Shown here: positions 10,216-61,094 of the stretch, piece by piece | How positions within the stretch are numbered: the first letter of the stretch is position 1 | Layout: every line of letters begins with the position of its first letter | Assembly (NCBI GenBank): GCA_008534395.1 | Contig: SHMQ01000012.1 | Location: forward strand, 3,824-67,823 | DNA length: 64,000 nt | Source of the DNA: Candidatus Acidulodesulfobacterium acidiphilum | GTDB taxonomy: Bacteria; SZUA-79; Acidulodesulfobacterales; Acidulodesulfobacteraceae | Direction: 5' to 3' | Position numbers and translations under genes: made by a program | Notes under the pieces: generated by a model | Database searches by the model: none | What the model was told of the DNA's origin: nothing | The model's input: the letters and a program-made list of their open reading frames with translations, nothing else

Positions 10216-12276
<2,061 letters not shown>

Positions 12277-43443: not shown

Positions 43444-43522
<79 letters not shown>

Positions 43523-43668: not shown

Positions 43669-44790
43669 ATGTCCGGAAACATAAGGCTTAGAGGTAAATT
43701 TTACCATTACGACTTTATGATAGACGGCAAACGTTATAAAGGTTCTACCAAAACAAGCGACAAAAAGCTTGCCGAGCATATAGCGGATACGATTAAAGCG
43801 GATTTGCTCAGGAAAAAGCACGACTTGCCGACTACGGTAGATTATATTTTTGAAGACTTGTGGAAAATATATTTAGATTCGCAGGCAACAGCGTTAACCA
43901 CTCAAAAAGTAAAAAGATGGATATCTAAACATTTTTTACCTGTTTTTAAGAATAAGAAAATTGCTGAAATCAATAACGACCAAATAGAAAATTATAGATT
44001 AAAAAGGCGACTTGAGATATTATCTATGCCTAAAAATATCGGCAAAAAAGAATCCGAAGTTTCATTTGCATATCTAAATAAAGAGATTTTAATTCTTTCA
44101 AATTTCTTTAACTTCTGTATCAAGAAAGGCTATATCGATAAGAACCCTTGCGTCGGCATTAAAAAACTAAACGAATTATCCCGCCTTAAAACATTATCCG
44201 ACGAAGACATAGGGAAGCTCATTAACGGAGCTACGAATAAGCTTACAAAAGATTTAATATCTTTTTTGATATATACGGGTTGCCGCAAAGGCGAAGCTCT
44301 AAATCTTAAATGGGACGACGTGGACTTAAAGAACGGAGTTATTGCAATTAAGGCGACGAAGACCAGATACGACAGGCGTATCCCTATTTCCGCCCCATTG
44401 GAAGCCGTTTTAACCGGCATTGAAAGAAATCAAGACTGTCCATACGTATTTAATCGAAACGGAGTAAAATTGACGGATTTTAAACGTTCCTTTCATACCG
44501 CCTGCCGCAATGCCGGATTAAAAGATTTGCATATCCACGACTTAAGGCACGTATTTGCAAGCGCTCTTACCATGAGCGACGTATCACTTTATAAGACGGG
44601 AATACTCTTGGGACACCGGACGCCTAACATGACCCAGAGATACGCCCATTTAAAGCCCGAAGAGTTAAAAAAAGAGATAGAAAAGGCGTTCGGCAAGAAA
44701 AATGAAGATAAAGAGGAAGAAATCAAACGAGAAGAATACGAAAAAGCTTTGGAGATTATAAGGAAATACGAAAAAAGCGGCGGTAAATAA
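43669..44790 (+). CDS. int: Tyrosine site-specific integrase
   Basis: Integrates and excises the island at tRNA-Val. An N-terminal AP2-like arm-binding region (FYHYDFMIDGKRYKGSTKTSDK) and a SAM-like core-binding domain precede the catalytic domain. The catalytic residues are all visible: Arg206 in TGCRKGEALNLKW, Lys near 231, His290/Arg293 in HIHDLRHVFA, His316 in LLGHRTPNMTQ and nucleophile Tyr325 in RYAHL. A charged tail follows. Length 373 is typical of tRNA-targeting integrases. An AAGGAG ribosome site is nine bases upstream. The intact residue set implies activity. Confidence 0.95.
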   Translation: MSGNIRLRGKFYHYDFMIDGKRYKGSTKTSDKKLAEHIADTIKADLLRKKHDLPTTVDYIFEDLWKIYLDSQATALTTQKVKRWISKHFLPVFKNKKIAEINNDQIENYRLKRRLEILSMPKNIGKKESEVSFAYLNKEILILSNFFNFCIKKGYIDKNPCVGIKKLNELSRLKTLSDEDIGKLINGATNKLTKDLISFLIYTGCRKGEALNLKWDDVDLKNGVIAIKATKTRYDRRIPISAPLEAVLTGIERNQDCPYVFNRNGVKLTDFKRSFHTACRNAGLKDLHIHDLRHVFASALTMSDVSLYKTGILLGHRTPNMTQRYAHLKPEELKKEIEKAFGKKNEDKEEEIKREEYEKALEIIRKYEKSGGK

Positions 44791-44957: not shown

Positions 44958-45101
44958 TTACCGCATATGGTAGTTATATAATTTTTCGGCAAATTCATCC
45001 AATATTTTATTTTTTGCCGCTTCTATTTCAGGAATAAAATCATCCTCTATCATTTTTTTAAGATTTATAACCGACCTCCTTTCTAATTCTAATTTGCGCA
45101 T
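44958..45101 (-). CDS. Possible small helical protein, with a stopped upstream in-frame segment
   Basis: A 47-codon frame (MRKLELERRSVINLKKMIED onward, ending HMR) with helical, charged character. In the same frame upstream, an ATG at 45188 with a strong AAGGGGG ribosome site starts 13 codons that end in TAA (45147-45149), after which the frame is open again into this one. So this may be an intact short gene, or a 75-residue gene broken by a nonsense change. The rest of the gap 44791-45345 holds only the palindromes and AT-rich sequence. No homology is recognised. Confidence 0.35.
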   Translation of the reverse strand: MRKLELERRSVINLKKMIEDDFIPEIEAAKNKILDEFAEKLYNYHMR

Positions 45102-45345: not shown

Positions 45346-47175
45346 CTATTTTTTATTAAATACCTCAGAGTAAACATATTTTTTAGGAATTAAAATTATA
45401 TTAGATGATTTTTTGCAATCCACATAATAACTATCGGGAGTTTTAAGAAATAACAAAAAATGAATCCAATTAATATTTGCAGTTGTTTTACTCTTTTTAA
45501 TATTGCATAAGTCTGATTTAACCTTAATGTATTTACTGATATCTGAATTATTGATATATTTTTTAGAAACACTTAATTCAACGGGAACATTCCCGCCAAT
45601 TTTTAATACTCTTAACGGTAACCCGGGATACTTCCAAGATAACATAAAATACAAAATACAGAACATAATAAAAATGTATTTCGTTAGGGATATTAATTTT
45701 TTCATGAATACTATAAAATAAAAGCTAAAAGATATTAAATTTATTAAGATAACGCACGCAACTGCTAACAAAAAGTTATTATGTATTTCAAAAAATAAAT
45801 TCAGAAAAATATATGGGATTATAAATTCAATTAATAAAAAAAATATAATAATTAAAGGTGAATATATTACAACCCAAGATTTTTCTATTTTGCCAGACAT
45901 TGATTTATCAGATTTTGATTTTAATATATTAACCGCTTCTTTAATATAAAATGGAATTATTAAGGGAAAGATAAATATAGTAAAATAAATTACGCTGACC
46001 ACTATTGCGTATAATAAAGGGAAAGCGATAAATAATTCGGGATTCAATAACGAAATAGGCAATTGTCCTTGATTTTTAAAAAGATACCAAAGAAATTCAA
46101 GCAAACCTAAAAAAGGTAAAATTGTAATAATATATTTCCAATTATTTTTCAAGAAAATAAATAAAGAATTAACCATATCTATGATTGGCCTTATTTCCGC
46201 CCTGTTACGCAACATTTCAACCCTATCTTTATAATAGCTTTTTGAAAAACTGTGAATTTCTGTATTGTTATATTTTAAACTAAACTTTATCCAACGATCT
46301 TTAGCTCTATCTGGTAAGAGAAAGTCCGTCTTAAAATCAAAAGAACCTCCTTTTTGTTTGTCTTTTTTTATCTTTATTTTATCATTTTCAATTGTTCCAT
46401 TCTTTAATAATAAAGTAAAGATATTATTAAAATCAAAAAATTCATAATCGATAACAATATTGTTTTCTTCCAATGTTTTATCGAAATTAAACTTTATCGG
46501 ACAACCGTTATAATCGGAATCTTCAGATATAGCAAAATAAATCGGCGGAATAAATTGAATATGGATAGCCGAGTTCACAGTATATTCAATATAGTTAGAG
46601 ATACCGCCAAGCTTTGTAAAATCAAAATGCTTTTCAAGCGATAAATATTTGCGCAACTCAATTTCATTTTTAAAAGGAGTATTTTTTAATAATACATCAA
46701 TGTGTAAGTCGCAATCCGCCCAAATACTTGGTTTGCCGTGAATATAAAGGTCTCCGTACGGTATCGTCGAACCTGAAAAAAAGTTAAAAATAGGGAGATA
46801 TTCGTCAAAGCTAAGGCAAAACTCATCCGTATTTTTTATTTTATTTTCCTTTATAGCGTCAATATATATTTTATCTATTTCTTCCGGACTATTAATTTTC
46901 TCGAATTTTATATCGATATTTATTTGGTCAGAATGAATAGTTTTATTTTTGGATTTTTCTTTAAATTCTTTTTCAATATTTTCACCTTGTTCCTCAAGAA
47001 AAGAAGGTAATAAAATAATTTTGCCGTAAAACAAAACCCATTTATTATTATTAGGATTTTTAATTGCGCAATAAGATGTTATCTTATATTTAAATGCTTT
47101 AGAGAATTCATCTAAATACTTTCTCGCGTCTACAAGCTTTCCCGTTAATAATTCAGACAATTCGGATTCTTTCAT
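45346..47175 (-). CDS. Large multi-spanning membrane protein, function unknown
   Basis: A 609-residue protein I do not recognise. Residues 1 to about 335 are soluble, with mixed alpha/beta character and many aromatic residues (YGDLYIHGKPSIWADCDLHIDVLL). Five or six membrane helices follow (about 343-365, 380-412, 430-460, 465-490, 495-510), and a soluble tail ends the protein. No signal peptide is seen, so the large N-domain is probably cytoplasmic. It lies 32 bp downstream of the PIN-domain gene on the same strand, so the two are likely one operon. Base composition is even more AT-rich than the core genes. Confidence 0.7.
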   Translation of the reverse strand: MKESELSELLTGKLVDARKYLDEFSKAFKYKITSYCAIKNPNNNKWVLFYGKIILLPSFLEEQGENIEKEFKEKSKNKTIHSDQINIDIKFEKINSPEEIDKIYIDAIKENKIKNTDEFCLSFDEYLPIFNFFSGSTIPYGDLYIHGKPSIWADCDLHIDVLLKNTPFKNEIELRKYLSLEKHFDFTKLGGISNYIEYTVNSAIHIQFIPPIYFAISEDSDYNGCPIKFNFDKTLEENNIVIDYEFFDFNNIFTLLLKNGTIENDKIKIKKDKQKGGSFDFKTDFLLPDRAKDRWIKFSLKYNNTEIHSFSKSYYKDRVEMLRNRAEIRPIIDMVNSLFIFLKNNWKYIITILPFLGLLEFLWYLFKNQGQLPISLLNPELFIAFPLLYAIVVSVIYFTIFIFPLIIPFYIKEAVNILKSKSDKSMSGKIEKSWVVIYSPLIIIFFLLIEFIIPYIFLNLFFEIHNNFLLAVACVILINLISFSFYFIVFMKKLISLTKYIFIMFCILYFMLSWKYPGLPLRVLKIGGNVPVELSVSKKYINNSDISKYIKVKSDLCNIKKSKTTANINWIHFLLFLKTPDSYYVDCKKSSNIILIPKKYVYSEVFNKK

Positions 47176-47207
47176 GTTTTTGTCGGTATCTATAAAAAAG
47201 CAAAATT

Positions 47208-48116
47208 TTATTCTATAATAGGTGTTATTGGTTTGTTCTCAGCTAAAATCATTTCTATCTTATTTATAATTTCGAATATTACAGGCATTGATTCCTTAAA
47301 TGCGTCGACAATATTTCTTATCGCTTTAAGCATAAATTCCCTTGACTTAGGGTGAAGAAGAGCCAAAAAAGTCGCCGCGACTAATATTATTTTAATCCAT
47401 GCAGGCAGTTTTTCTATCCAAACGACAATTTGCGCAATTATGCCGGAAATAATTTTAAAAGTTTCAAATCCGACAACAATTGAAAAAGCTCCTCCTACTT
47501 TCAAAATAGCGGTTACGGTAGCTTTTCGAGAATAATCGCGCGCCGAAGCGCAAAATTCAAATACTAAAACTCCTTTATCGCCTACAGGTTTTGCCGATAA
47601 TACTTTGCCGCCCATTGATTTTAAGTCTCTATCTTTGTTTATAATAGCGTCTGCCGATAATAATTCCGCTAATGCTAAAATCGGAATATCGTCGGGATCT
47701 ATAGGATTTTTATATTTATCGATAATTACTTTGTCTGGTTCTTTAATTTTAAGCATCGCTTTGTAAGATTTCCACTCTTTTTTAAGAGAATCCATAGGTA
47801 TATTGTGTTGAGAAGCTATATCTTTTAAATGCTCGTCGACTTCTTTGATGACGGTTTTAGTGCAATAAACAATAAAAGTGCCGGCGAGAATGCATTCTTG
47901 TATTTGTGTTATAGCTTCAGGATTTTTTCTTTCTTTAACAAGCCAAATAATATCGCCTAAAATACAATTGGCGTCGATAACGAGGCGAAATTGAGCTAAA
48001 TCGCCTATTAAATCTTTTATAAACTTTGAACTTTTGATTAACTGACGTAACGATAAAAGATAGGCGGAATTTACAGGAATATTTTTTTTAGCGGTAGGTT
48101 TCATCGACGATTTCAA
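47208..48116 (-). CDS. PIN-domain (putative RNase) protein with C-terminal membrane helices
   Basis: A 302-residue protein. The PIN nuclease domain (about 43-170) has its four acidic residues: Asp48 in RLVIDANCILGD, Glu92 in TKTVIKEVDEHL, Asp142 or Asp143 in IDPDDIPILALAELL, and Asp162 in INKDRDLKS. Two hydrophobic helices follow (about 205-230 and 233-252), then an amphipathic C-terminus. An intact acidic set suggests metal-dependent RNA cleavage. The gene precedes the 609-residue membrane protein gene. No VapB-type antitoxin is adjacent, so this is not a standard VapBC pair. Confidence 0.8.
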   Translation of the reverse strand: MKSSMKPTAKKNIPVNSAYLLSLRQLIKSSKFIKDLIGDLAQFRLVIDANCILGDIIWLVKERKNPEAITQIQECILAGTFIVYCTKTVIKEVDEHLKDIASQHNIPMDSLKKEWKSYKAMLKIKEPDKVIIDKYKNPIDPDDIPILALAELLSADAIINKDRDLKSMGGKVLSAKPVGDKGVLVFEFCASARDYSRKATVTAILKVGGAFSIVVGFETFKIISGIIAQIVVWIEKLPAWIKIILVAATFLALLHPKSREFMLKAIRNIVDAFKESMPVIFEIINKIEMILAENKPITPIIE

Positions 48117-48176
48117 TATTATTTATTAATTTTTTTTAAATATTTTATTTTCTGATCACTTTAGAGGCTTCTTTTT

Positions 48177-48413
48177 CTATATTGGCGTCGTTTGATAATG
48201 TTCCCAAATCCTGAATAATTTCCATCCTATTTTTTTGTAATATTCATTGACTTCGACATCTCTCGCCTTGTTTCGTTCTATTTTGGCAACCCAATATTCA
48301 ATCCTCGTTTTTGGCATCCTTAAATGAGTTTCGCAACCGTGCCAAAAACAAGAATCCACGAAAATAACAGTTTTATATTTTTTTAAAACCAGATCAAATT
48401 TACTAAAAAGACT
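48177..48413 (-). pseudogene. vsr: Truncated very-short-patch-repair (Vsr) endonuclease
   Basis: The frame encodes FDLVLKKYKTVIFVDSCFWHG, then CETHLRMPKTRIEYW and ARDVEVNEYYKKIGWKLFRIWEH, which is the core of Vsr with the active-site Asp and the CFWHGC histidines. A stop codon (48414-48416) precedes the residues shown, so about 50 N-terminal residues are missing, and the C-terminus is short. A GTG at 48359 could start a 60-residue remnant. Vsr normally accompanies a cytosine-C5 methylase; none is here, so it is probably decayed baggage from another restriction system. Confidence 0.75.
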
Positions 48414-48501
48414 TTAAATCATTTTTTCTGCATTTTAAATGAATCTGGTTTATATCGTAGTATGTATATAGATGTGTTTTTAAATCTGGCATTATTTTAA
48501 G

Positions 48502-50337
48502 TTATATCTCTTTTGAAACCAATAATTCTCCACCTAAAACATCGACTATTTTAACGGCAATTTTTATTTTTTTGTTTTGTATATCAATATCATAATCAGC
48601 CTTTATTAAATCTTTTTGTTTTTCAGGAATATCTATATATATAGTTTGGAAGAACTTTTCATTATAATTTACATCAACCGCCACATATTCAATCATACTT
48701 CTAAAATCCGGCATATCTTTATCAAGTAAAGTTTTTGCTAAATTAAACCTTTTTATTACTGTTGGCGATATAAAATCATTAATTTTAATTTTTGCTTTAT
48801 TCTTATTTATTCTTTTTATTTCTATATCAGCTTGTGGTGGCTCATAGATCAAAAATCCTCCAGTTTCTTTATTCGTTTTTAAATTAACAACTTCAATTTT
48901 ATTTACAGGCATTCTTTTATTCCATTCCTCTATCCAAAGATATGTATTTATTTCCTGACCATAAGTTACAATTGTGATGTTTCTTTCTTCATTATCCCTC
49001 TTCTTTAATTCGTCTTTAATATTTTCTAAATCTATCAAGTTTAGAGGATGATTAAAATCAATTATTTTGACCAATCTTTTACCTAGTTTGCCCTCAAAAA
49101 AATTGTCTGTTCCCATTTTTTCAATTTCAAGGTGTTTTACTGCCAATTCTTTAGCCTCGCTTTGGAATTGCTTAAACTCATAATCATTTACTTTATAATT
49201 TGCAAAAGAACTATAAATTTTTACTTTATTATCTTGAATTAATTTCAAATTTTTATCTTTTTCTAATTGTTCCCTGATTATTTTAGATATGCCTTGTGCG
49301 GTAAGTTGTATTGCTCCTTTGTTAATATCGCAGCCAATCCAGCGTCTACCAAGTTTCTGCGCAACCCTAACAGTTGTGCCAGATCCAATAAAACAATCAA
49401 GAATTAAATCGTCAAAATTAGTTGAGGCTTTGATAAATATTTCTAATAAATCTTCAGGTTTTTGCGTCTCAAAACCTGTGCGTTCTCCGGAGGTAGAGGC
49501 CATTATCGCTACATGATTAATAACATCATCAATTCTTTTACCCTCCGTTTTTGGATAAGTTTTCCCATAGTAGATTGTTCCATCTGTTTTTCTCCTTTTT
49601 ATTTGAGCATATTTATTACCCTCTTCATCTATTTTATTGTATCTATTCATATCAGTATCTCTATAAGGCTGCCACACATCGTTCCAAACATAATTTTTAC
49701 TTTTTGAATACCATAAAATAACATCGTGAGCGTGCTGGTAAATATTTTTTGATTCTGTGCCCCTAAAGCCTTTATTCCAAATAATCTCATTTCTAAAATT
49801 TTCTTCTCCAAATATTTCGTCCATAATTAATTTCACGTAATGCACCATTCTGTAATCCAAATGAACATAAATACTGCCGCTATCAGATAACAACTCCTTC
49901 ATGAGTATTAATCGTTCATATATCCATTGAAAATACTCATCCCTTTTCCAAATATCTTCATACATGATCTGTTGCAAAAGCGGGGCTTCATCCTCTTCTA
50001 TTTCATTGCCCTTAAATCCCTTTAACTTAACCTTTCTTAGATAATCTCTATTGCTTGCATAAGGAGGATCAATATAAATTAGGTCTATTTTGCTACGATA
50101 GCCGTTTTCTAAAAGCGTTGCTAAAACTTCTTCGTTGTCTCCCTCGAACAAAAGATTATACCAATTTTTTTCTAATTCTTTATAGTCTGGCGAGTCAACA
50201 GGTTTTATATCATTTTTTGGATTGTGAAACTCAATTAATTGTGCAGGAAATCCCTTAACTGTTTGTATCGGTTTTTTTCCTACCCAATAAAACATAGGTC
50301 TGCCTTTTGGCGCTTGTATTTTTAACTGTTCGCTCAT
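48502..50337 (-). CDS. mod: Type III restriction-modification methyltransferase (Mod)
   Basis: N6-adenine methyltransferase and specificity subunit, 611 residues. It is beta-class: the catalytic motif IV DLIYIDPPYASNRDYL (DPPY 90-93) comes before the AdoMet motif I DLILDCFIGSGTTVRVAQKLGRRWIGCDIN (about 310-340). The target-recognition region lies between them (about 180-290). The C-terminal third is variable. It starts three bases after the res stop, so the two are one operon with res first. The recognition site cannot be read from sequence. Confidence 0.93.
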   Translation of the reverse strand: MSEQLKIQAPKGRPMFYWVGKKPIQTVKGFPAQLIEFHNPKNDIKPVDSPDYKELEKNWYNLLFEGDNEEVLATLLENGYRSKIDLIYIDPPYASNRDYLRKVKLKGFKGNEIEEDEAPLLQQIMYEDIWKRDEYFQWIYERLILMKELLSDSGSIYVHLDYRMVHYVKLIMDEIFGEENFRNEIIWNKGFRGTESKNIYQHAHDVILWYSKSKNYVWNDVWQPYRDTDMNRYNKIDEEGNKYAQIKRRKTDGTIYYGKTYPKTEGKRIDDVINHVAIMASTSGERTGFETQKPEDLLEIFIKASTNFDDLILDCFIGSGTTVRVAQKLGRRWIGCDINKGAIQLTAQGISKIIREQLEKDKNLKLIQDNKVKIYSSFANYKVNDYEFKQFQSEAKELAVKHLEIEKMGTDNFFEGKLGKRLVKIIDFNHPLNLIDLENIKDELKKRDNEERNITIVTYGQEINTYLWIEEWNKRMPVNKIEVVNLKTNKETGGFLIYEPPQADIEIKRINKNKAKIKINDFISPTVIKRFNLAKTLLDKDMPDFRSMIEYVAVDVNYNEKFFQTIYIDIPEKQKDLIKADYDIDIQNKKIKIAVKIVDVLGGELLVSKEI

Positions 50338-50340
50338 TTT

Positions 50341-52917
50341 TTATTGTCCTTTATAGATTAAATTATAGATTTTATCTAATTCGCCATAGACAAGGTTTTC
50401 GCCGTCAGTTTCCAAAATTTCATATTTTATCTTTTCTGCGTTTAAGTTTTCCATTTCTTTCATTGATTTTTCAATTAAATTATTTCTAAACGGTTCACCT
50501 TTTATTTCGATAATTAAAATTTTGCCACTTGCCTTGCGAATAATAAAATCGGGCGTATAAGTATGCCATTTGCCATCATTGCCTTTATATTCAAAAAGCA
50601 AATCCGTTTTGTTATACGAAGTTATAGCGCCTGTAAAATAGACATCTTCAACATCATCAATATCTTCACCAAGTCTTAATAGAATTGAATTATAAAAATC
50701 TTTTTCAGGTTTACTGTCAAAATTATAAGGTGTATAATGAAATCCGAATTTCATATTAGGATATTTGTTGATATCTAAACATAATTCATCAAATCGTCTT
50801 TTATTTATTTTTATCTCAGTATAATATGAAGTTTCGTCATTATTAAAACCATCTAATTTTAGCAACGCTAATGCTTTTTCAATAATTTCCTCTTTTATTT
50901 CATACTTAGATAATTGTTCCTCAATTATTTCTTTTAATTTGTCAATAACTGATAATGGTATTTCAGTTTTATTATTAAATGCTTTTTTTAGTAATTTTAA
51001 AACATTCAAGCTTTTCAATCTGTAAGTGTCTGCTAATTCAGTTGCTACAAAATAAATACCTGAAGTTTGCTCTTCAATTTCAAAGGTATTCTCATCAATA
51101 ATATTTAGCACTTTGCCTTTTTTATCGCTTAATGTAAGCGTATTAGATTGCACTTTTATTTTTTGAGGTGTAACATCTAACTCTGGAAAATATAATTTAG
51201 ATTTATCAACTGTTTCTTTTAAAACAACGTTTTTGACTTTTTCTTTTACTGAAATAGGTTGAACTTTTGTTTTTCTAATTGTCAGTCTAATAGAAATTAA
51301 TTCTGATGATTGCAGGTTAATATCATTTAAACTTTCTCCATAAGTTTCTTGTAATTGATTATCTAGAATGCTAACATTTTTTTGCGATAAATAAATTTTT
51401 GCTTTTTTTGTATTGTTTGGAATTTGTCTTAAACAACGAGATGCAGCCTGCAAGCAAAAATTATTTGAACCTGTTAATTCACGAGCTAAAGCAGTAGCAA
51501 ACAACGACGGGCAATTCCAGCCCTCAGTTCCTTTGTTTACAAGCAATAAAATTCTAAATGGGACACTTGGACTATTAATGCGGTTATCAAATAAATCTTT
51601 TATTTCATCTTTTGAATTACTGTGGACTTCAAGCAATATTTCATTTGGATTAATATTATTTTTTATTAAAACTTTTTCAATAGTTTCTTTTGCATTTTTT
51701 ATGTAATCAATTTGAGGAAAATAGAATGCTAATTTTGCTTTTGTCCCATCATAAATTTTTACATTCCAGTATTCTCTTATAAAATCTTCTGTAACTATCT
51801 GTGTAAAATAGCTGTTATTCACATCTTCAAATGCTTTAATATTACCACTTACATCTTTTAAAATTCCGTCTTTAATTCCTTGTTTAAGTCCATACCAATA
51901 AATTACATCTCGTAAAATTTTTTTTTGATAATATGGTGTTCCTGTTGTATTAATAACAACTTTTAAATTTGTTTTATCTGCAATATAATTTATAGTTTGC
52001 CGTATTTTTTTTAATTCATCCCCAATTGATTGCCCGTAAGTATGATGCGCCTCATCAGAAAAAATACCTAAATCAGGCAAAGAAGTCAGGGTCTGCAACC
52101 GTTGATTTGCAAGTAATTCTTTTACTTCTTCTTTTTTTTTATCTTGAAGATTTTTAATGTCTTTAAATAATGAGTTTTTTATTGAACTTGCTGTTAATCT
52201 TATTTTTTCAGTATTTGTAACAATTACATTAAAAACACTACCTTTAATAACAGGAATATCTTTTTGATTATCTTGTGTATAAATTAATTTCACATTTGTA
52301 ATAAATTTTTTAAATAATCGCTTTGGCAGAATTATCTCATAAGGAGCAAAACTAATTTCTCTTAATGCACCTAAAATGGTTTTTCCTGGCGCAAAAACTA
52401 AAGCATTTTTTATAAAATGCTCATTAGGATATTCCAAAGACATAGCAAATTCAGTTGCAATAATGCTTGCAATTAAAATTGTTTTTCCAGAGCCCATTGC
52501 CAAAGCAAGAATATATGATGGATAAGATAATGTAAGTGTTTCACGAACTCCTTCTAAACGATGTCTTTTTACAAAATCATTATCTTCTTTTATATTTTCA
52601 ATAAAACTTTTATATACTTGTTTTTTTATATCTTCATTTGGAATATTTTCTAAACCAGAAAGTATTTCTTTAGGAATTCCGAGTGCTTTTAATAACTCCA
52701 TTCCTTCGAAATATTTTTTATATAATTCTTCAATAGTCGGTGAACCTAAAACATTTCTTATATACCAATAATTTTCTAATGCTTCAATTTGCGCTTGTCG
52801 TAAATAATTTTCTTTATTTATGTGTTCAAATATTTCGGTTAAAGTTTCAAATTGTGATTTATATCCTCCGTTTCTCCAATCTTTCACACTTTCTTTTATT
52901 ATTTCATATAAATTCAT
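50341..52917 (-). CDS. res: Type III restriction enzyme (Res) helicase-endonuclease
   Basis: ATP-dependent translocase and nuclease of 858 residues that cuts unmodified DNA together with Mod. Walker A is LALAMGSGKTILIAS (141-146) and the DEAH box is FSDEAHHTYG (288-291). Later helicase motifs are NTTGTPYY, VNKGTEGWNCPSLFATAL and LQAASRCLRQ. The C-terminal PD-(D/E)xK nuclease has YTPDFIIRKASGKILIIEIKGE near residue 800. All motifs look intact. Gene order res-mod is the reverse of the common mod-res layout. Confidence 0.93.
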   Translation of the reverse strand: MNLYEIIKESVKDWRNGGYKSQFETLTEIFEHINKENYLRQAQIEALENYWYIRNVLGSPTIEELYKKYFEGMELLKALGIPKEILSGLENIPNEDIKKQVYKSFIENIKEDNDFVKRHRLEGVRETLTLSYPSYILALAMGSGKTILIASIIATEFAMSLEYPNEHFIKNALVFAPGKTILGALREISFAPYEIILPKRLFKKFITNVKLIYTQDNQKDIPVIKGSVFNVIVTNTEKIRLTASSIKNSLFKDIKNLQDKKKEEVKELLANQRLQTLTSLPDLGIFSDEAHHTYGQSIGDELKKIRQTINYIADKTNLKVVINTTGTPYYQKKILRDVIYWYGLKQGIKDGILKDVSGNIKAFEDVNNSYFTQIVTEDFIREYWNVKIYDGTKAKLAFYFPQIDYIKNAKETIEKVLIKNNINPNEILLEVHSNSKDEIKDLFDNRINSPSVPFRILLLVNKGTEGWNCPSLFATALARELTGSNNFCLQAASRCLRQIPNNTKKAKIYLSQKNVSILDNQLQETYGESLNDINLQSSELISIRLTIRKTKVQPISVKEKVKNVVLKETVDKSKLYFPELDVTPQKIKVQSNTLTLSDKKGKVLNIIDENTFEIEEQTSGIYFVATELADTYRLKSLNVLKLLKKAFNNKTEIPLSVIDKLKEIIEEQLSKYEIKEEIIEKALALLKLDGFNNDETSYYTEIKINKRRFDELCLDINKYPNMKFGFHYTPYNFDSKPEKDFYNSILLRLGEDIDDVEDVYFTGAITSYNKTDLLFEYKGNDGKWHTYTPDFIIRKASGKILIIEIKGEPFRNNLIEKSMKEMENLNAEKIKYEILETDGENLVYGELDKIYNLIYKGQ

Positions 52918-52982: not shown

Positions 52983-53510
52983 CTAAAACCTAATCATCGC
53001 CTCTAATTTTATCCCGTTTAGTACATACACGAAAATAGTCCCGACGTAAGCTCCCGTCTTTGCTATTATCCTGTATCCGTAATAATTAGCCGTAGCTTTG
53101 TCGTCTTGACGTGCCTCTTGGATAGTATTATTTATAACAGATTTAATCCCCTTTGGCAAGTTATCCCACCCTGCCATATTGGTGTTTTTAATATCTGCGA
53201 TATTGCCGGAGCAAATCTTATAATTTTCGATAGCCCAATATGCCGGTTTCGGAAAGCCCTGCGTGCGTCTTATGATACTTATGAGTTTACAGCCGGACAT
53301 AGTCGTCGTTATAGGCAAAGCGTTATAGGTATAAGCTCCGTAAGTGTAGGTATAAGGACTACCGAAATTATAAACCCGCATTGCAAGCTTGTTAAAGTTA
53401 GAGTCTGACTGGTTGTAAGGGATATTAAAAATCCCTAAAGCAAAAATCTTATTTGCAGAAAATAAGATAAATGCAAATATAAATATTTTTATTATAATTT
53501 TATTCATCAA
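52983..53510 (-). CDS. Exported protein with an unrecognised domain shared with a lipoprotein of the island
   Basis: A 175-residue protein with a signal peptide (IIIKIFIFAFILFSANKIFA). The mature part shows FNKLAMRVYNFGSPYTY, NALPITTTMSGCKLISIIRR, ENYKICSGNI, WDNLPKGIKSVINNTIQEAR and ATANYYGY, and ends with VYVLNGIKLEAMIRF. The same series, in order, ends the lipoprotein at 57553-58675. I know no family for it. The four-base overlap (ATGA) with the upstream nuclease gene indicates a coupled operon, although one product is exported and the other is cytoplasmic. Two Cys could form a disulphide. Confidence 0.75.
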   Translation of the reverse strand: MMNKIIIKIFIFAFILFSANKIFALGIFNIPYNQSDSNFNKLAMRVYNFGSPYTYTYGAYTYNALPITTTMSGCKLISIIRRTQGFPKPAYWAIENYKICSGNIADIKNTNMAGWDNLPKGIKSVINNTIQEARQDDKATANYYGYRIIAKTGAYVGTIFVYVLNGIKLEAMIRF

Positions 53511-54267: not shown

Positions 54268-54807
54268 TTAAAATTTCCCGTCAAAAAATTCCGTCAAACT
54301 ATTTATCTTATTCTCCGGCTCCGGCAAACTAAAATCCCCATAACCTCTATTGAGCCAATAAGCCTTGCACTCAGGACAGTTTAATTCTATATGGTGAATT
54401 GCCAAATTATAATCGTCTATGAAATATTTTATTCCAAGTTCGGAAATAATTCTATGCTTTTCTTTCGTGTCGGCATGATATATCGGAATGTCTTTGCCTA
54501 ATACTTTTAATACGTTTAATTTTCTCAAATGCAAAGCTTCTTTCGGGCTTGACGTTATAAAGCATTTGATGCCATTAATATAAAGCTTTAAGTTTAGAAC
54601 CTCGTCAAAAACTTCCATATCGGAAAAGTCAATTCTTGAATTGATTAAGAATACCTGCTCCGCGGTAATCTCGTATCTGTCCGCCATATTATAAATTTCT
54701 GAATGCTTAACCGAAACTTCAAATCCAAGTTTTAAAGCTTCTTTTTGAAAAGTTTTCTCGTAGTCGAATATAACGCCGTCTAAGTCTAATGCGGTTTGGG
54801 TTAACAT
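54268..54807 (-). CDS. HAD-superfamily hydrolase (5'-nucleotidase-like)
   Basis: A 179-residue phosphohydrolase. The nucleophile motif is ALDLDGVIFDYE (Asp8 and Asp10), the Ser motif is CFITSSPKEAL, and the metal motif is KYFIDDYNLAIHH. Compact size and lack of a cap suggest a nucleotidase or polynucleotide phosphatase type. It shares one base with the upstream membrane gene and is two bases from the HARE-HTH gene. A role in processing DNA ends or nucleotides fits its neighbours but is inference. Confidence 0.75.
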   Translation of the reverse strand: MLTQTALDLDGVIFDYEKTFQKEALKLGFEVSVKHSEIYNMADRYEITAEQVFLINSRIDFSDMEVFDEVLNLKLYINGIKCFITSSPKEALHLRKLNVLKVLGKDIPIYHADTKEKHRIISELGIKYFIDDYNLAIHHIELNCPECKAYWLNRGYGDFSLPEPENKINSLTEFFDGKF

Positions 54808-55064
54808 TAATTTGCCTCTGTTTGCTTTATTTTTTGACTATCTTTTTTGAAATATCCTCTTATATCCAATATCAGCAATATAGCGTTTAGAATTAAAAGG
54901 CTCCATACGTTATCGATATACGCTATCGCTATCCACAAAATACAACTTAATATTGAGACCGCAAATCCTATTTTATATTTATGCGAAGAAAAAAACCAGA
55001 CAGCCAATAGAGTAGCCGATAAGCCCGAATAGTTTAATATTTGAAATAATATTTTATGCAGCAT
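54807..55064 (-). CDS. Small three-helix membrane protein
   Basis: An 85-residue protein with about three hydrophobic segments (ILNYSGLSATLLAVWFF, IGFAVSILSCILWIAIAYI, LLILNAILLILDIRGYF) and a charged tail. The layout, with a Trp-rich middle and an RGYFKK end, resembles small phage-borne or PnuC-like half-transporter proteins, but that match is weak. It is three bases from the recombinase gene and one base overlaps the HAD gene, so it is clearly part of the operon. Confidence 0.55.
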   Translation of the reverse strand: MLHKILFQILNYSGLSATLLAVWFFSSHKYKIGFAVSILSCILWIAIAYIDNVWSLLILNAILLILDIRGYFKKDSQKIKQTEAN

Positions 55065-55067
55065 AAT

Positions 55068-55745
55068 TTACAATCCGTTGTTCGCCCTGCTTATCGCTTC
55101 CGCCATGTCCTTATTGCTGTATTTAAGATAGATTAGCGTATTCGATATGCTTGCGTGTCCCAAAAAGTTTTTCAACAACATTATATTCATTCCGCTATCA
55201 AGCAAATGAACGGCTCTCGTATGCCTTAAGGCGTGGGGATGGGCTTTGTCTAAATTGCTTTGACCTAATAATTTAACGACGTAAGATTTAAACATAAGGC
55301 TTATACCTTTTCTCGTGATAGCGGGTTTGCCTTGCCGTTGAGATAGAATAAAATCGTCGTCGGTAAGTTTAGCGGTAACCCTGTGATTTAAAATTAACGA
55401 CAATAATTTATCGGATATTTTTAAATAGCGGTAAATTTTATTTTTTTTCCGCTGTTTTAACGTCAATACTTTAACCCGTCCGTTGCCGGTGTCTATATCG
55501 CTAAATTTTAAGGTTCTTGCTTCTTCGATTCTTGCTCCGGTTTCGTATAACAAAAGAATAACGAGCTTATGGAAAGGGTTGTCTATGCCGTCCGTTAAAG
55601 TTTTAATCTGCGAAGCGGTAAAGAAAACGATATTGTCGTTTTCGTAATAATTATTAGTCTTTAAATCGGTTTCTATAAACTCAGTTTTTTTACCGTTCTT
55701 GGTGATAGGCGTTTCGGCATAGATTGCGATTTGATTATTGTCCAT
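55068..55745 (-). CDS. Second tyrosine recombinase, XerC/D-like, nearly catalytic-domain only
   Basis: A 225-residue recombinase lacking a full arm- and core-binding domain. All catalytic residues are present: Arg72 in ETGARIEEARTLKF, Lys97 in VLTLKQRKK, His171/Arg174 in HPHALRHTRAVH, His197 in NFLGHASI and Tyr206 in TLIYLKYS. It heads the five-gene minus-strand operon down to 52983. It could invert or resolve a segment in the island, or be an accessory recombinase. Its target site is not evident. Confidence 0.88.
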   Translation of the reverse strand: MDNNQIAIYAETPITKNGKKTEFIETDLKTNNYYENDNIVFFTASQIKTLTDGIDNPFHKLVILLLYETGARIEEARTLKFSDIDTGNGRVKVLTLKQRKKNKIYRYLKISDKLLSLILNHRVTAKLTDDDFILSQRQGKPAITRKGISLMFKSYVVKLLGQSNLDKAHPHALRHTRAVHLLDSGMNIMLLKNFLGHASISNTLIYLKYSNKDMAEAISRANNGL

Positions 55746-55995
55746 AAGATTAATATTTACCTATTTTCCTTAATTAATCATTTATTTTGTTCGTGATTAA
55801 AAATTACACAATTTGATTAAGCTAACGAAATTTTTAAAATATAGAATTTCGATTATCTGGGTCTTAGAAAAGTTATCCACAAAAATTGTTGAATAAATTT
55901 TAACTTCCTTAAATACTATTATAGGAATTTTTGAGCTAAAAATCAATATAAAAATAGTAAATTTTTATTATTTTTTTTGTTTAAAAAGGCGGGGT

Positions 55996-56029
55996 TACTT
56001 CCTAAAATATAGTAGGAAGTATTTTTTTT
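55996..56029 (+). terminator. Strong intrinsic terminator reading rightward, with no gene before it
   Basis: TACTTCCTA (55996-56004) and TAGGAAGTA (56013-56021) form a perfect nine-pair stem with an eight-base loop, followed by seven T. The 250 bases upstream (55746-55995) hold no open frame on this strand. It could end a small RNA, or attenuate the following membrane-protein gene. A TATAAT at 56051-56056 then offers a promoter for that gene. Confidence 0.75.
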
Positions 56030-56105
56030 AGCAAAACGATTAATTTAAGATATAATTATAGAATAAAATTATTAAAAAATTAAAAATTTATAAGGAGATA
56101 AATAT

Positions 56106-56468
56106 ATGACTATAAATAATAATCAAACCACGAACAACCAATCGTCATCGCAAACGGAAAACGTACAGTCAATATTTGCGGGATTGATAAAATATAGTCA
56201 TAAAATATCTTCTATAACTGCAGAAATATTGAAAATTATATCGATATTTTCAATTATTTTTATTGTATTAGGTTTTTTAGATATTTTATTTTATACTGAA
56301 AATCAGAAAATTCAATTGCCATTATCGAGACCATTTAAAATTTCGTGTCAGTCTGAATTATACAAAATTTATAGAAAGAGTATAAAATTAAAGAAAATTT
56401 TGTATTTTTTCTTTACCATTTTATTTATTTTAGCGGTATTTTTTATACATTATAGATATTTTGTATAA
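56106..56468 (+). CDS. Small two-helix membrane protein
   Basis: A 120-residue protein with an Asn/Gln/Thr-rich N-terminus (about 1-25) and two membrane helices (about 40-62 and 98-117) separated by a basic loop. A clear AAGGAG lies eight bases before the ATG. I do not recognise a family. It is the only + strand gene in the middle of the island and is convergent with the outer-membrane protein gene. Confidence 0.6.
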   Translation: MTINNNQTTNNQSSSQTENVQSIFAGLIKYSHKISSITAEILKIISIFSIIFIVLGFLDILFYTENQKIQLPLSRPFKISCQSELYKIYRKSIKLKKILYFFFTILFILAVFFIHYRYFV

Positions 56469-56528
56469 AAAATACGTTTGAAATTTATAAAACTGCAAAA
56501 AAGGCAAAGAGTATAAATTTTATACAAT

Positions 56529-57509
56529 CTAAAAACCTAATTTAATTCCAAAGCCTATAAACAATTGATTTGTTTGTGATTGAGGCTCATCTACTGTATA
56601 ATTTGTGTAACCAACTAAATTAGCAGGTGGATATGTATATTGTGGTATATTGTAATAAGTAATAGTATTTGATTTATTTACTTTTAGCTGTGAATAATTT
56701 AAACTAATGAAAGGCCCGATATTTATAGTTTTTGATTTATAAACTTGATAACCTATTTTAATGCCAAATAAAAAACCGCTTCTATTGCCAAGTTCAAAAT
56801 TTTGGCTTTCGTAATTGCCAAGTTCACCTATATAATTTCCTGAATTATTATATACTAAAGCTGTGGGGACCAATGCATTTGTATCCATTGAATTGTCTGT
56901 ACCGTGAGTATAATAACCCTCTCCTGCTAACCATAGCCTGTTTGTTATTAAGTAATAAGCTTTAATACCCAATAAATAACGGTTAAAATGATAATGCTCA
57001 ATATACTCTGTGTTACCAGCATTATCCAAAATATTTCTATTCCAGTCCATCCATTCAAAACCGGCATTAGGTATTATGGCTAATTTGTTATCATCGATTA
57101 TAAAAGCATAACCTACTCTAAAGCCATAATTAATATAGCCGATGTGGTCTGTGTTTTCAATTGGAATATTTGTAATCTGGGTGGCGCCAGTATATGTCGA
57201 ATTACCATAATAATCAGAGTAATTTAGTTCATACCATATTGGTATCTTTGAATTAGGTATTCCCTCCAAAGATAAATTAACTCCTGGGATAATGGCATCC
57301 TCATTGTCTAATGTAGAACCATTTGAATCATGCTCCGCATAATGCACATAGTCTTTATTAATTGTTATGTTAAAAGAATTTGTTAATTTAAAAATAGATT
57401 TTGACATATTTTTAGATGGATATCCGTATTTAGACACTCCATGCGCATAAACATTAACACAACCAAACATAAGCGTTGTGAAGATAATTAAAAATAAAAT
57501 CTTTTTCAT
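56529..57509 (-). CDS. Outer-membrane beta-barrel protein
   Basis: A 326-residue exported protein. A signal peptide (about 1-22, ending VYA) is followed by alternating hydrophobic and polar strands with many Tyr, Asn and Gly (GYINYGFRVGYAFIIDD, WLAGEGYYTHGTD, GFLFGIKIGYQVY), and the C-terminus is the BAM-type IGFGIKLGF. A barrel of about 12 strands is likely. Good ribosome site (GGAGGAG). Its neighbours are the island lipoprotein and a smaller barrel protein, forming a surface-exposed module. Substrate unknown. Confidence 0.8.
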   Translation of the reverse strand: MKKILFLIIFTTLMFGCVNVYAHGVSKYGYPSKNMSKSIFKLTNSFNITINKDYVHYAEHDSNGSTLDNEDAIIPGVNLSLEGIPNSKIPIWYELNYSDYYGNSTYTGATQITNIPIENTDHIGYINYGFRVGYAFIIDDNKLAIIPNAGFEWMDWNRNILDNAGNTEYIEHYHFNRYLLGIKAYYLITNRLWLAGEGYYTHGTDNSMDTNALVPTALVYNNSGNYIGELGNYESQNFELGNRSGFLFGIKIGYQVYKSKTINIGPFISLNYSQLKVNKSNTITYYNIPQYTYPPANLVGYTNYTVDEPQSQTNQLFIGFGIKLGF

Positions 57510-57552: not shown

Positions 57553-58675
57553 TTATTTTATGATAGCTTGAAGCCGTATACCTTTTAAAACGTATAAATT
57601 AACAGATTTGCCTTTAACATCCGCTTTACCTATTATAGTAATATCCTTTATAATTTGCGCTTGCTTTTCCGTATTCACGAGTCTCATTATAAACTTCATT
57701 TATAATAGGTTTTATATTTTCAGGCAGTGTGTCCCAATCTGAAATATTTGAGCTTTCGGTTTCAAAAATATTACCTCTGCATATTTTATAGTTTTCGATA
57801 TTTCGTTGATTATGTTTTGAATTGCCGTTTATTTTTCTTATAACGCTTATTATCCGACAGCCTGATAGGGTAGAAGTAACTGGCATGGCATTATATATGT
57901 ATTTTTCGTTTGAATAAATATATGGACTGCTAGTTTTATAAACATATAAGGCAAATTTCTTAAAATTAGGATCGTTATCAGCATAAATTGACAATAAACG
58001 ATTATTTTTGGAAGAATAAAAGATTATTTTATTAGGTATATAACTTTGTTTATTTTTATTGATTTGCTTTGCATATACTCTATCTTTATTATCTTTCTTT
58101 GTTATAAGCTTTTTAAGTTTTGATACAAAATTTCCGCAGACTTTCCTTAAAATTTTTTTGGGATTGGGTGAGACTAATTTTTGAGTGCTGGAGCCTTTTG
58201 CCATAATAGCATATTCTTTACCGTTAATTAATGCATCCGCTTCAAATCTGGCATTAAACGGTTCGCTTATAAAAAGTGCGGAAATAGGCATTAAAATTCC
58301 GACTGGATTAACTACCGCCCAAGTATAAGCTTTTCTATAATCGTGGATATAAATAATGTTAGGCTTTTCAGGTTTTTTATTTACAAACAAAGTCCCCGCA
58401 TTATTGATTATTTTATGAATTTCTATTCCTAAACATTTATAAATTTCAACTTCTTTTTTAGAAAGCGGAGTTCCTGTTAATAAGCTATATGAAAACTTAA
58501 TATTTTGCTTTTTTATAGCAATTTTGTATTTAACTTTACTGGAATTATTAGGTATAGAGGCGTTAGAGTATAACGGGGCATATGCACAACCGCTTATAGA
58601 AACAATAGCGGCGGATAAAAATAATAAAATCAATATCTTATTAGTTATGAAATCCATAAAATTAAAAGTTTTCAT
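57553..58675 (-). pseudogene. Lipoprotein with the shared C-terminal domain, frameshifted near its 3' end
   Basis: The uninterrupted frame (57626-58675) encodes 349 residues with a lipobox (VSISGC) and a unique N-terminal domain. The last 110 residues match the exported protein at 52983-53510: KKFALYVYKTSSPYIY, NAMPVTSTLSGCRIISVIRK, ENYKICRGNI, ASANYKGY. The frame then ends early (YYYNR). Removing one T near 57640 restores TIIGKADVKG, then VYVLNGIKLE-like sequence (LYVLKGIRLQAIIK) to a stop at 57553, matching the relative's tail. So this is one gene with a one-base insertion, either genuine or a sequence error. Confidence 0.75.
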
Positions 58676-58735: not shown

Positions 58736-59417
58736 TTAAATATTTCCAAAATAATAAGATATACCGACTAAGAAATCATAATTATTCATTGTAATATTTG
58801 GCGAATCAGGAAAAGATATTGACTGAGATACAGAATCAAATTCAAAATTTATACCTACATTTTTTAGTATTAAGTACTGAGCCCCCAATCCATAATAAAT
58901 TGACCCGCCGTTAGAAAAGGAAACATTATCATTAATTCCATCCAATTCAACAGAAGTATTATTAAGGTCATTGTGAACGGTTCCAATTCTTCCGTATAGC
59001 AAAAATCTTTTTGAAACTATAATTCCGGGCTCTAAATATGCTCCATAAGAAGAGCTAGCGTAAGAAATGCTTTCCGGTAAAGAAACTCCCTGATATGATA
59101 ATGTTCCATTTGCTGTAATTTTGCTATTATTCAAGTATATAATGCCGACACCCAATATTACGGGTATCTTGTTAAATTTGTAATTATATCCCGCATTCAA
59201 ACCAAAAGCAAAAGCTGTTTTAGCGCTTGAAAGACCGCTTGAGGAATATGGAGTTCCTGATACCAAAGAGGCATTAGCTCCGCTCATATTTGTATCAACT
59301 AAACCAATATTACCGCCGACATATAAACCTGAAAAATTTGAATTTTCACTAGCATAAGCCTTAGCGGTCATAAAAATAAAAGCAATAGCAATTACAAAAT
59401 AGATAATTTTTTTTCAT
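58736..59417 (-). pseudogene. Small outer-membrane barrel gene, out of frame at an A8 tract by its start codon
   Basis: The barrel frame (58736-59371) encodes 211 residues with opacity/OmpA-like strands (FSGLYVGGNIGLVDTN, FGLNAGYNYKF, FLVGISYYFGNI). A good ribosome site (AAAGGGAG) and ATG at 59417 lie just upstream but read out of frame into an 18-residue peptide. With seven rather than eight A after the ATG (59407-59414), they give the signal peptide MKKIIYFVIAIAFIFMTAKAYA joined to the barrel. The ATG at 59371 alone would lack a signal. This is phase variation, a mutation, or a homopolymer error. Confidence 0.8.
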
Positions 59418-61046: not shown

Positions 61047-61094
61047 TTGACACGGTAGGGGTCGGCGGTTCGAGACCGCCCGTGCCTACCAGTA
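61047..61094 (+). repeat. attR: copy of the tRNA-Val 3' half
   Basis: This is an exact 48-base copy of 43475-43522, without the 5' half of the tRNA, so it cannot make a tRNA. It marks the right border of the island. Upstream sequence differs from the tRNA, as expected for the element side. Confidence 0.92.

Follow-up and report, generated by a model that had tools for sequence, protein, structure and literature searches.

Do the gene for a PIN-domain protein with a membrane segment and the gene for a 609-residue membrane protein beside it form a new two-gene defence system? The question is raised by a stretch of 64,000 nucleotides of Candidatus Acidulodesulfobacterium acidiphilum (contig SHMQ01000012.1; hereafter the window, to which all coordinates refer unless a locus is named), where the original prediction had seen a membrane-coupled RNase pair in an island with a type III restriction-modification (R-M) system. 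The two genes are arranged as described, on the same strand and 32 bp apart (Table 1), within a 17.6-kb integrative island bounded by exact 48-bp direct repeats. The recurring feature, as comparison with a second locus revealed, is a PIN-membrane gene adjoining an R-M system, with differing membrane neighbours, and the PIN locus appears to be an uncommon and unproven variation on toxin-like defence genes already described, not a new two-gene system.

The PIN protein and its relative in a second island

Both window genes are genuine, the chance of open frames this long being ~1e-10 for the PIN gene and ~1e-24 for the 609-residue protein (our estimate from base composition). The PIN protein was searched for as a full-length sequence in 61 genomes, with a PIN profile in 386 genomes, and also in 30 genomes of the phylum, the GTDB contig collection, viral contigs, plasmids and phages. 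One full-length relative, 52% identical, was found, on contig 28 of another genome of the same genus (G009), placing the gene in 2 of the 30 phylum genomes. Plasmids, phages and viral contigs yielded no homologue of either full-length window protein, and PDB searches returned no relatives. PIN proteins of Streptomyces and Kitasatospora plasmids (28% identity, E 0.2; hhalign probability 95.7% over residues 43-174) were rejected as relatives, as they share the PIN domain only and their tails are unalignable. The window gene starts with TTG and has an in-frame ATG at 48104, four codons further in; its relative likewise starts with TTG, with an ATG shortly after, and either start is possible.

By its profile matches the protein is a member of the PIN-domain nuclease superfamily, scoring 28.5 bits with PIN_3 (cut-off 27) and 25.4 bits with PIN_2 (cut-off 22.4), while the relative scores 35.5 bits with Pfam PIN. 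The catalytic acids D48, E92, D142/D143 and D162, which the original prediction had described as retained, are kept in both aligned copies, and the protein is probably a metal-dependent RNase. The PIN domain (residues ~44-172) is followed by a linker with the motif FCASARDYSRKAT, a weak hydrophobic stretch (199-232), a strong transmembrane (TM) segment (237-255) and an amphipathic tail. Scored on the Wimley-White octanol scale, the strong segment reaches -8.6 kcal/mol in one copy and -9.8 kcal/mol in the other, each time preceded by the weaker stretch, so that of the several membrane helices initially proposed one strong, conserved segment stands and the rest is a weaker stretch. The C-terminal tail probably anchors the protein to the cytoplasmic membrane. 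The ratio of nonsynonymous to synonymous substitution rates (dN/dS) between the two genes is ~0.22, with dN lowest in the PIN domain (0.26) and the following linker (0.16) versus 0.46-0.49 elsewhere, which indicates an intact gene under purifying selection that is strongest in these two regions.

The G009 copy resides in its own island, independent of the tRNA-Val island of the window, with tRNA-Arg(acg) and a broken integrase copy at one end and a repeat of the tRNA 3' part ~11.5 kb away at the other. The gene order is integrase, a 176-residue protein with one TM segment, PIN, hsdM, hsdS, hsdR, a metallopeptidase-like protein and a Fic/DOC protein. The gene of the 176-residue protein ends 1 bp upstream of the PIN gene in the same direction, and the PIN gene itself is 37 bp upstream of hsdM, the first gene of a complete type I hsdMSR operon. 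The Fic/DOC protein at the right end (L006 15372-16199) carries a C-terminal extension. Both copies being island-borne, the PIN gene is an infrequent passenger of the integrative islands that target tRNA genes in this lineage.

The R-M neighbourhood and the favoured reading

An R-M operon lies directly beside the PIN gene at both loci, type III-like mod/res in the window, in agreement with the R-M system first reported there, and hsdMSR in G009. As a baseline, 29 neighbourhoods of 10-16 kb around integrases of this family were sampled, and a type I or III R-M homologue was found in 4 of them (95% interval 0.04-0.32); some of these stretches may overrun the island end, which would inflate the baseline and make the test conservative, while distant R-M types would be missed, with the opposite effect. 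The R-M link of the PIN gene is suggestive only.

The reading that we favour, with a probability of roughly 0.4, centres on the PIN gene alone: its product would be a rare PIN RNase, tethered to the membrane and lacking an antitoxin, that may serve R-M systems as a dormancy or abortive effector and whose membrane neighbours are exchangeable. We infer a scheme of RNase activity, membrane tethering, latency and release on infection, in which the PIN RNase would inhibit itself or be sequestered at the membrane, perhaps assisted by the R-M complex or by the membrane protein next to it, until infection released it to cut tRNA or mRNA, stopping growth. Such a scheme would follow PrrC-type logic, in which restriction is backed by RNase dormancy. 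It is improbable that the two copies represent a whole class of PIN RNase effectors, specific to this lineage and tethered to the membrane, that join R-M types I and III and swap membrane-bound sensor partners between islands.

Several observations weigh against the favoured reading. There are two loci only, and nearby R-M genes were part of what drew attention to the one in the window; independent support therefore comes from one locus, for which the chance of an R-M neighbour is ~0.14. R-M systems and toxin genes both accumulate in islands without joint function. Neither window protein matched PADLOC-DB 2.0.0 at E 0.1, leaving no good defence-model match, and the AlphaFold2 models of the PIN and 609-residue proteins have a predicted local distance difference test score (pLDDT) of 38.5 and 38, respectively, leaving fold and membrane topology unconfirmed in both. 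Weak PADLOC matches (E ~0.001-0.009) of PtuA1 to 57626-58675, GajB to the 176-residue protein and PDC-S70 to the G009 PIN protein were judged to be due to chance.

Among the alternatives, generic toxin-antitoxin (TA) or addiction cargo survives best, although it is rather unlikely: the protein would be a VapC-like toxin stabilising its island, and the nearness of R-M genes would reflect ordinary cargo clustering. The location of both PIN copies in integrase islands, the Fic/DOC toxin in the G009 island and a match to TIGR00305 (PIN toxin of TA systems; 18.2 bits, under the cut-off of 29.15) are consistent with this view. However, among open reading frames (ORFs) of at least 25 residues at the two loci, no canonical antitoxin candidate was recognised beside either PIN copy, in line with the claim that an ordinary antitoxin is missing, and VapC proteins do not typically carry a membrane segment. 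Moreover, PIN_2 matches in 291 genomes are confined to open frames of at most 168 residues, save the two studied copies and one interrupted, non-equivalent frame. A canonical VapBC pair was rejected, as no small DNA-binding antitoxin gene was recognised next to the PIN gene at either locus.

The 609-residue neighbour and the rest of the island

The 609-residue protein comprises an N-domain (residues 1-330), at least five TM helices (348-512) and a soluble C-terminal domain (515-609; LKIGGN...LLKT...YYV), the last being an addition to the N-domain and five or six helices recognised initially. It was searched for as a full-length protein in 61 genomes and with a profile of its membrane module in 291 genomes. 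NCBIfam, PADLOC, PHROGs and PDB gave nothing, Pfam gave no match over the cut-off, and for the first 330 residues no collection searched held a relative. The TM helices and C-terminal domain match 637-residue and 371-residue proteins in another genome (G005); the C-terminal half is part of a distinct family of membrane proteins from mobile elements. A decayed copy of this membrane module is present in the window, divergent from a second integrase (55068-55745(-)), and the same divergent arrangement is found in G005 contig 78. As the module stands beside the same small integrase in both places, it is part of another mobile unit. This second unit, nested in the island at 54268-56684, consists of the small integrase, a HAD-like protein and the membrane module, and the same parts occur in G005 contig 78 (L007 6040-10428). 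In the 637-residue protein of G005 the module is fused to a one-TM helical family (L075 10227-10712(-), L090 10073-10549(-)), which has a weak LeoBC match (E 0.0014) and also adjoins a Mod-like gene in G019 and lies near one in the window's own genome.

A true two-gene system, in which the 609-residue protein would sense infection at the membrane and control or anchor the PIN RNase, is unlikely. The shared strand, the 32-bp gap and the membrane segments in both proteins are compatible with it, as is the co-directional membrane protein beside the G009 PIN gene, which makes some membrane partner common to both loci; DS-5 is moreover a validated PIN two-gene system needing both genes (PMC13092281). 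The PIN neighbours at the two loci are, however, unrelated: G009, which holds the one comparison locus, yielded no 609-residue homologue, and its 176-residue protein bears no relation to the 609-residue protein and is without relatives among the remaining phylum genomes searched. Conversely, G005, with its module relatives, contains no PIN homologue. The membrane half of the 609-residue protein stems from a separate mobile-element family. The proposal of the two genes as a membrane-coupled unit, which was to be given up if they did not co-occur elsewhere, thus fails within the genomes searched (61, 386 and 291), and a conserved two-gene unit was rejected; the 609-residue protein is a modular neighbour of recent origin. 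A two-gene unit read from a single genome can fall apart on comparison with a second locus.

That the PIN protein has nothing to do with defence, and is instead a chance passenger (an RNase of housekeeping type or in decay, or an enzyme of regulatory RNA processing), is very unlikely: the gene is rare, lacks a defence-model match and shares its island with several decayed genes, but it is intact, apparently under purifying selection and found solely as island cargo.

The island genes on the minus strand run in the order HARE-HTH/PDDEXK protein, 175-residue protein, Res, Mod, decayed Vsr-like gene, PIN and 609-residue protein. The Vsr-like (very short patch repair endonuclease) gene (48145-48420(-)), identified by eye, is decayed with frame changes. 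A 47-residue helical ORF (44958-45101(-)) on the same strand, downstream of the 609-residue protein gene, is putatively coding only. The products of 56529-57509 and 58736-59371(-) have the look of signal-peptide and outer-membrane-barrel proteins, an unusual island cargo beside R-M genes. A family with the motif YNA-P-T-T-SGC-IS-IR has two copies in the island (52983-53510 and the C-terminal part of 57626-58675) and recurs in G019 next to a Mod-like gene (reverse strand of L075, around 10700-11200). Across the region, promoter-like sites are not more frequent than in shuffled sequences. Copies of the integrase family are present in 27 of the 30 phylum genomes, with up to 23 matches per genome; tRNA-targeting integrases are very numerous across these genomes, many of them broken, and the lineage seems rich in tRNA-targeting islands.

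Table 1. Features of the PIN island in the window.
Feature	Coordinates	Strand	Evidence or remark
attL	43475..43522	+	3' part of tRNA-Val(gac) gene 43444-43519; exact 48-bp repeat of 61047-61094
Tyrosine recombinase (island integrase)	43669..44790	+	PF00589 2e-26
609-residue membrane protein	45346..47175	-	No Pfam hit over the cut-off; relatives of the C-terminal module in G005
PIN-domain protein, 302 residues	47208..48116	-	Pfam PIN_3 and PIN_2; G009 relative 52% identical
Type III-like DNA methyltransferase (Mod), upstream neighbour of PIN gene	48502..50337	-	PF01555 9.9e-54; PADLOC MTase_II/MTase_III
Type III-like restriction subunit (Res)	50341..52917	-	PF04851 ResIII 3.8e-07; weak PADLOC REase_III
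Decayed copy of the membrane module of the 609-residue protein	56106..56684	+	Several stops; module-profile match with 6 stops, G000:C12:60007-60507
attR, right island end	61047..61094	+	48-bp copy of tRNA-Val 3' part

Comparison with known systems

VapC and PIN_3 toxins (PF13470, PF10130, TIGR00305) share with the PIN protein a PIN domain with catalytic acids, whereas the latter has 120-130 additional C-terminal residues with a TM segment and no VapB-like gene. ToxM/ToxR, a membrane-anchored RelE-like toxin with its antitoxin (PMC11980606), resembles it in joining an RNase-fold toxin to a transmembrane domain, but has a BECR fold where a PIN fold is found here, a large outside domain instead of a short tail, and an antitoxin, which is absent here.

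Two PIN systems described in the same study (PMC13092281) come closer. DS-5, in which a PIN protein is paired with a DUF5830/AcrIF4-like partner, has the same two-gene arrangement of a PIN RNase and a non-antitoxin partner, while the partner in the window is a membrane protein that matches no family and is not conserved. DS-3 is a one-protein PIN system that defends against phage without an antitoxin and is thought to be auto-inhibited; the window protein is likewise a putative PIN RNase without a cognate antitoxin and differs in that its PIN domain is contiguous and N-terminal and is followed by a membrane tail.

That toxin nucleases without antitoxins are carried in R-M loci is a published idea, for which PrrC with a type I R-M system is the proven case (PMC3506569). 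Like the genes of the PrrC/RloC anticodon nucleases, the PIN gene encodes an RNase-type toxin candidate, adjoins an R-M operon and lacks an antitoxin of its own, the G009 copy being beside hsdMSR itself. In contrast to PrrC/RloC, which combine HEPN with an ABC ATPase, the protein has a PIN domain and a membrane segment, and its control by R-M would hold by analogy only. As the components are of known kinds (R-M toxin nucleases, single PIN defence and membrane RNase toxins), their combination is a variant. If the favoured reading is true, the R-M-linked RNase dormancy known for PrrC would be extended to membrane-held PIN RNases, in a lineage where searches found no such model.
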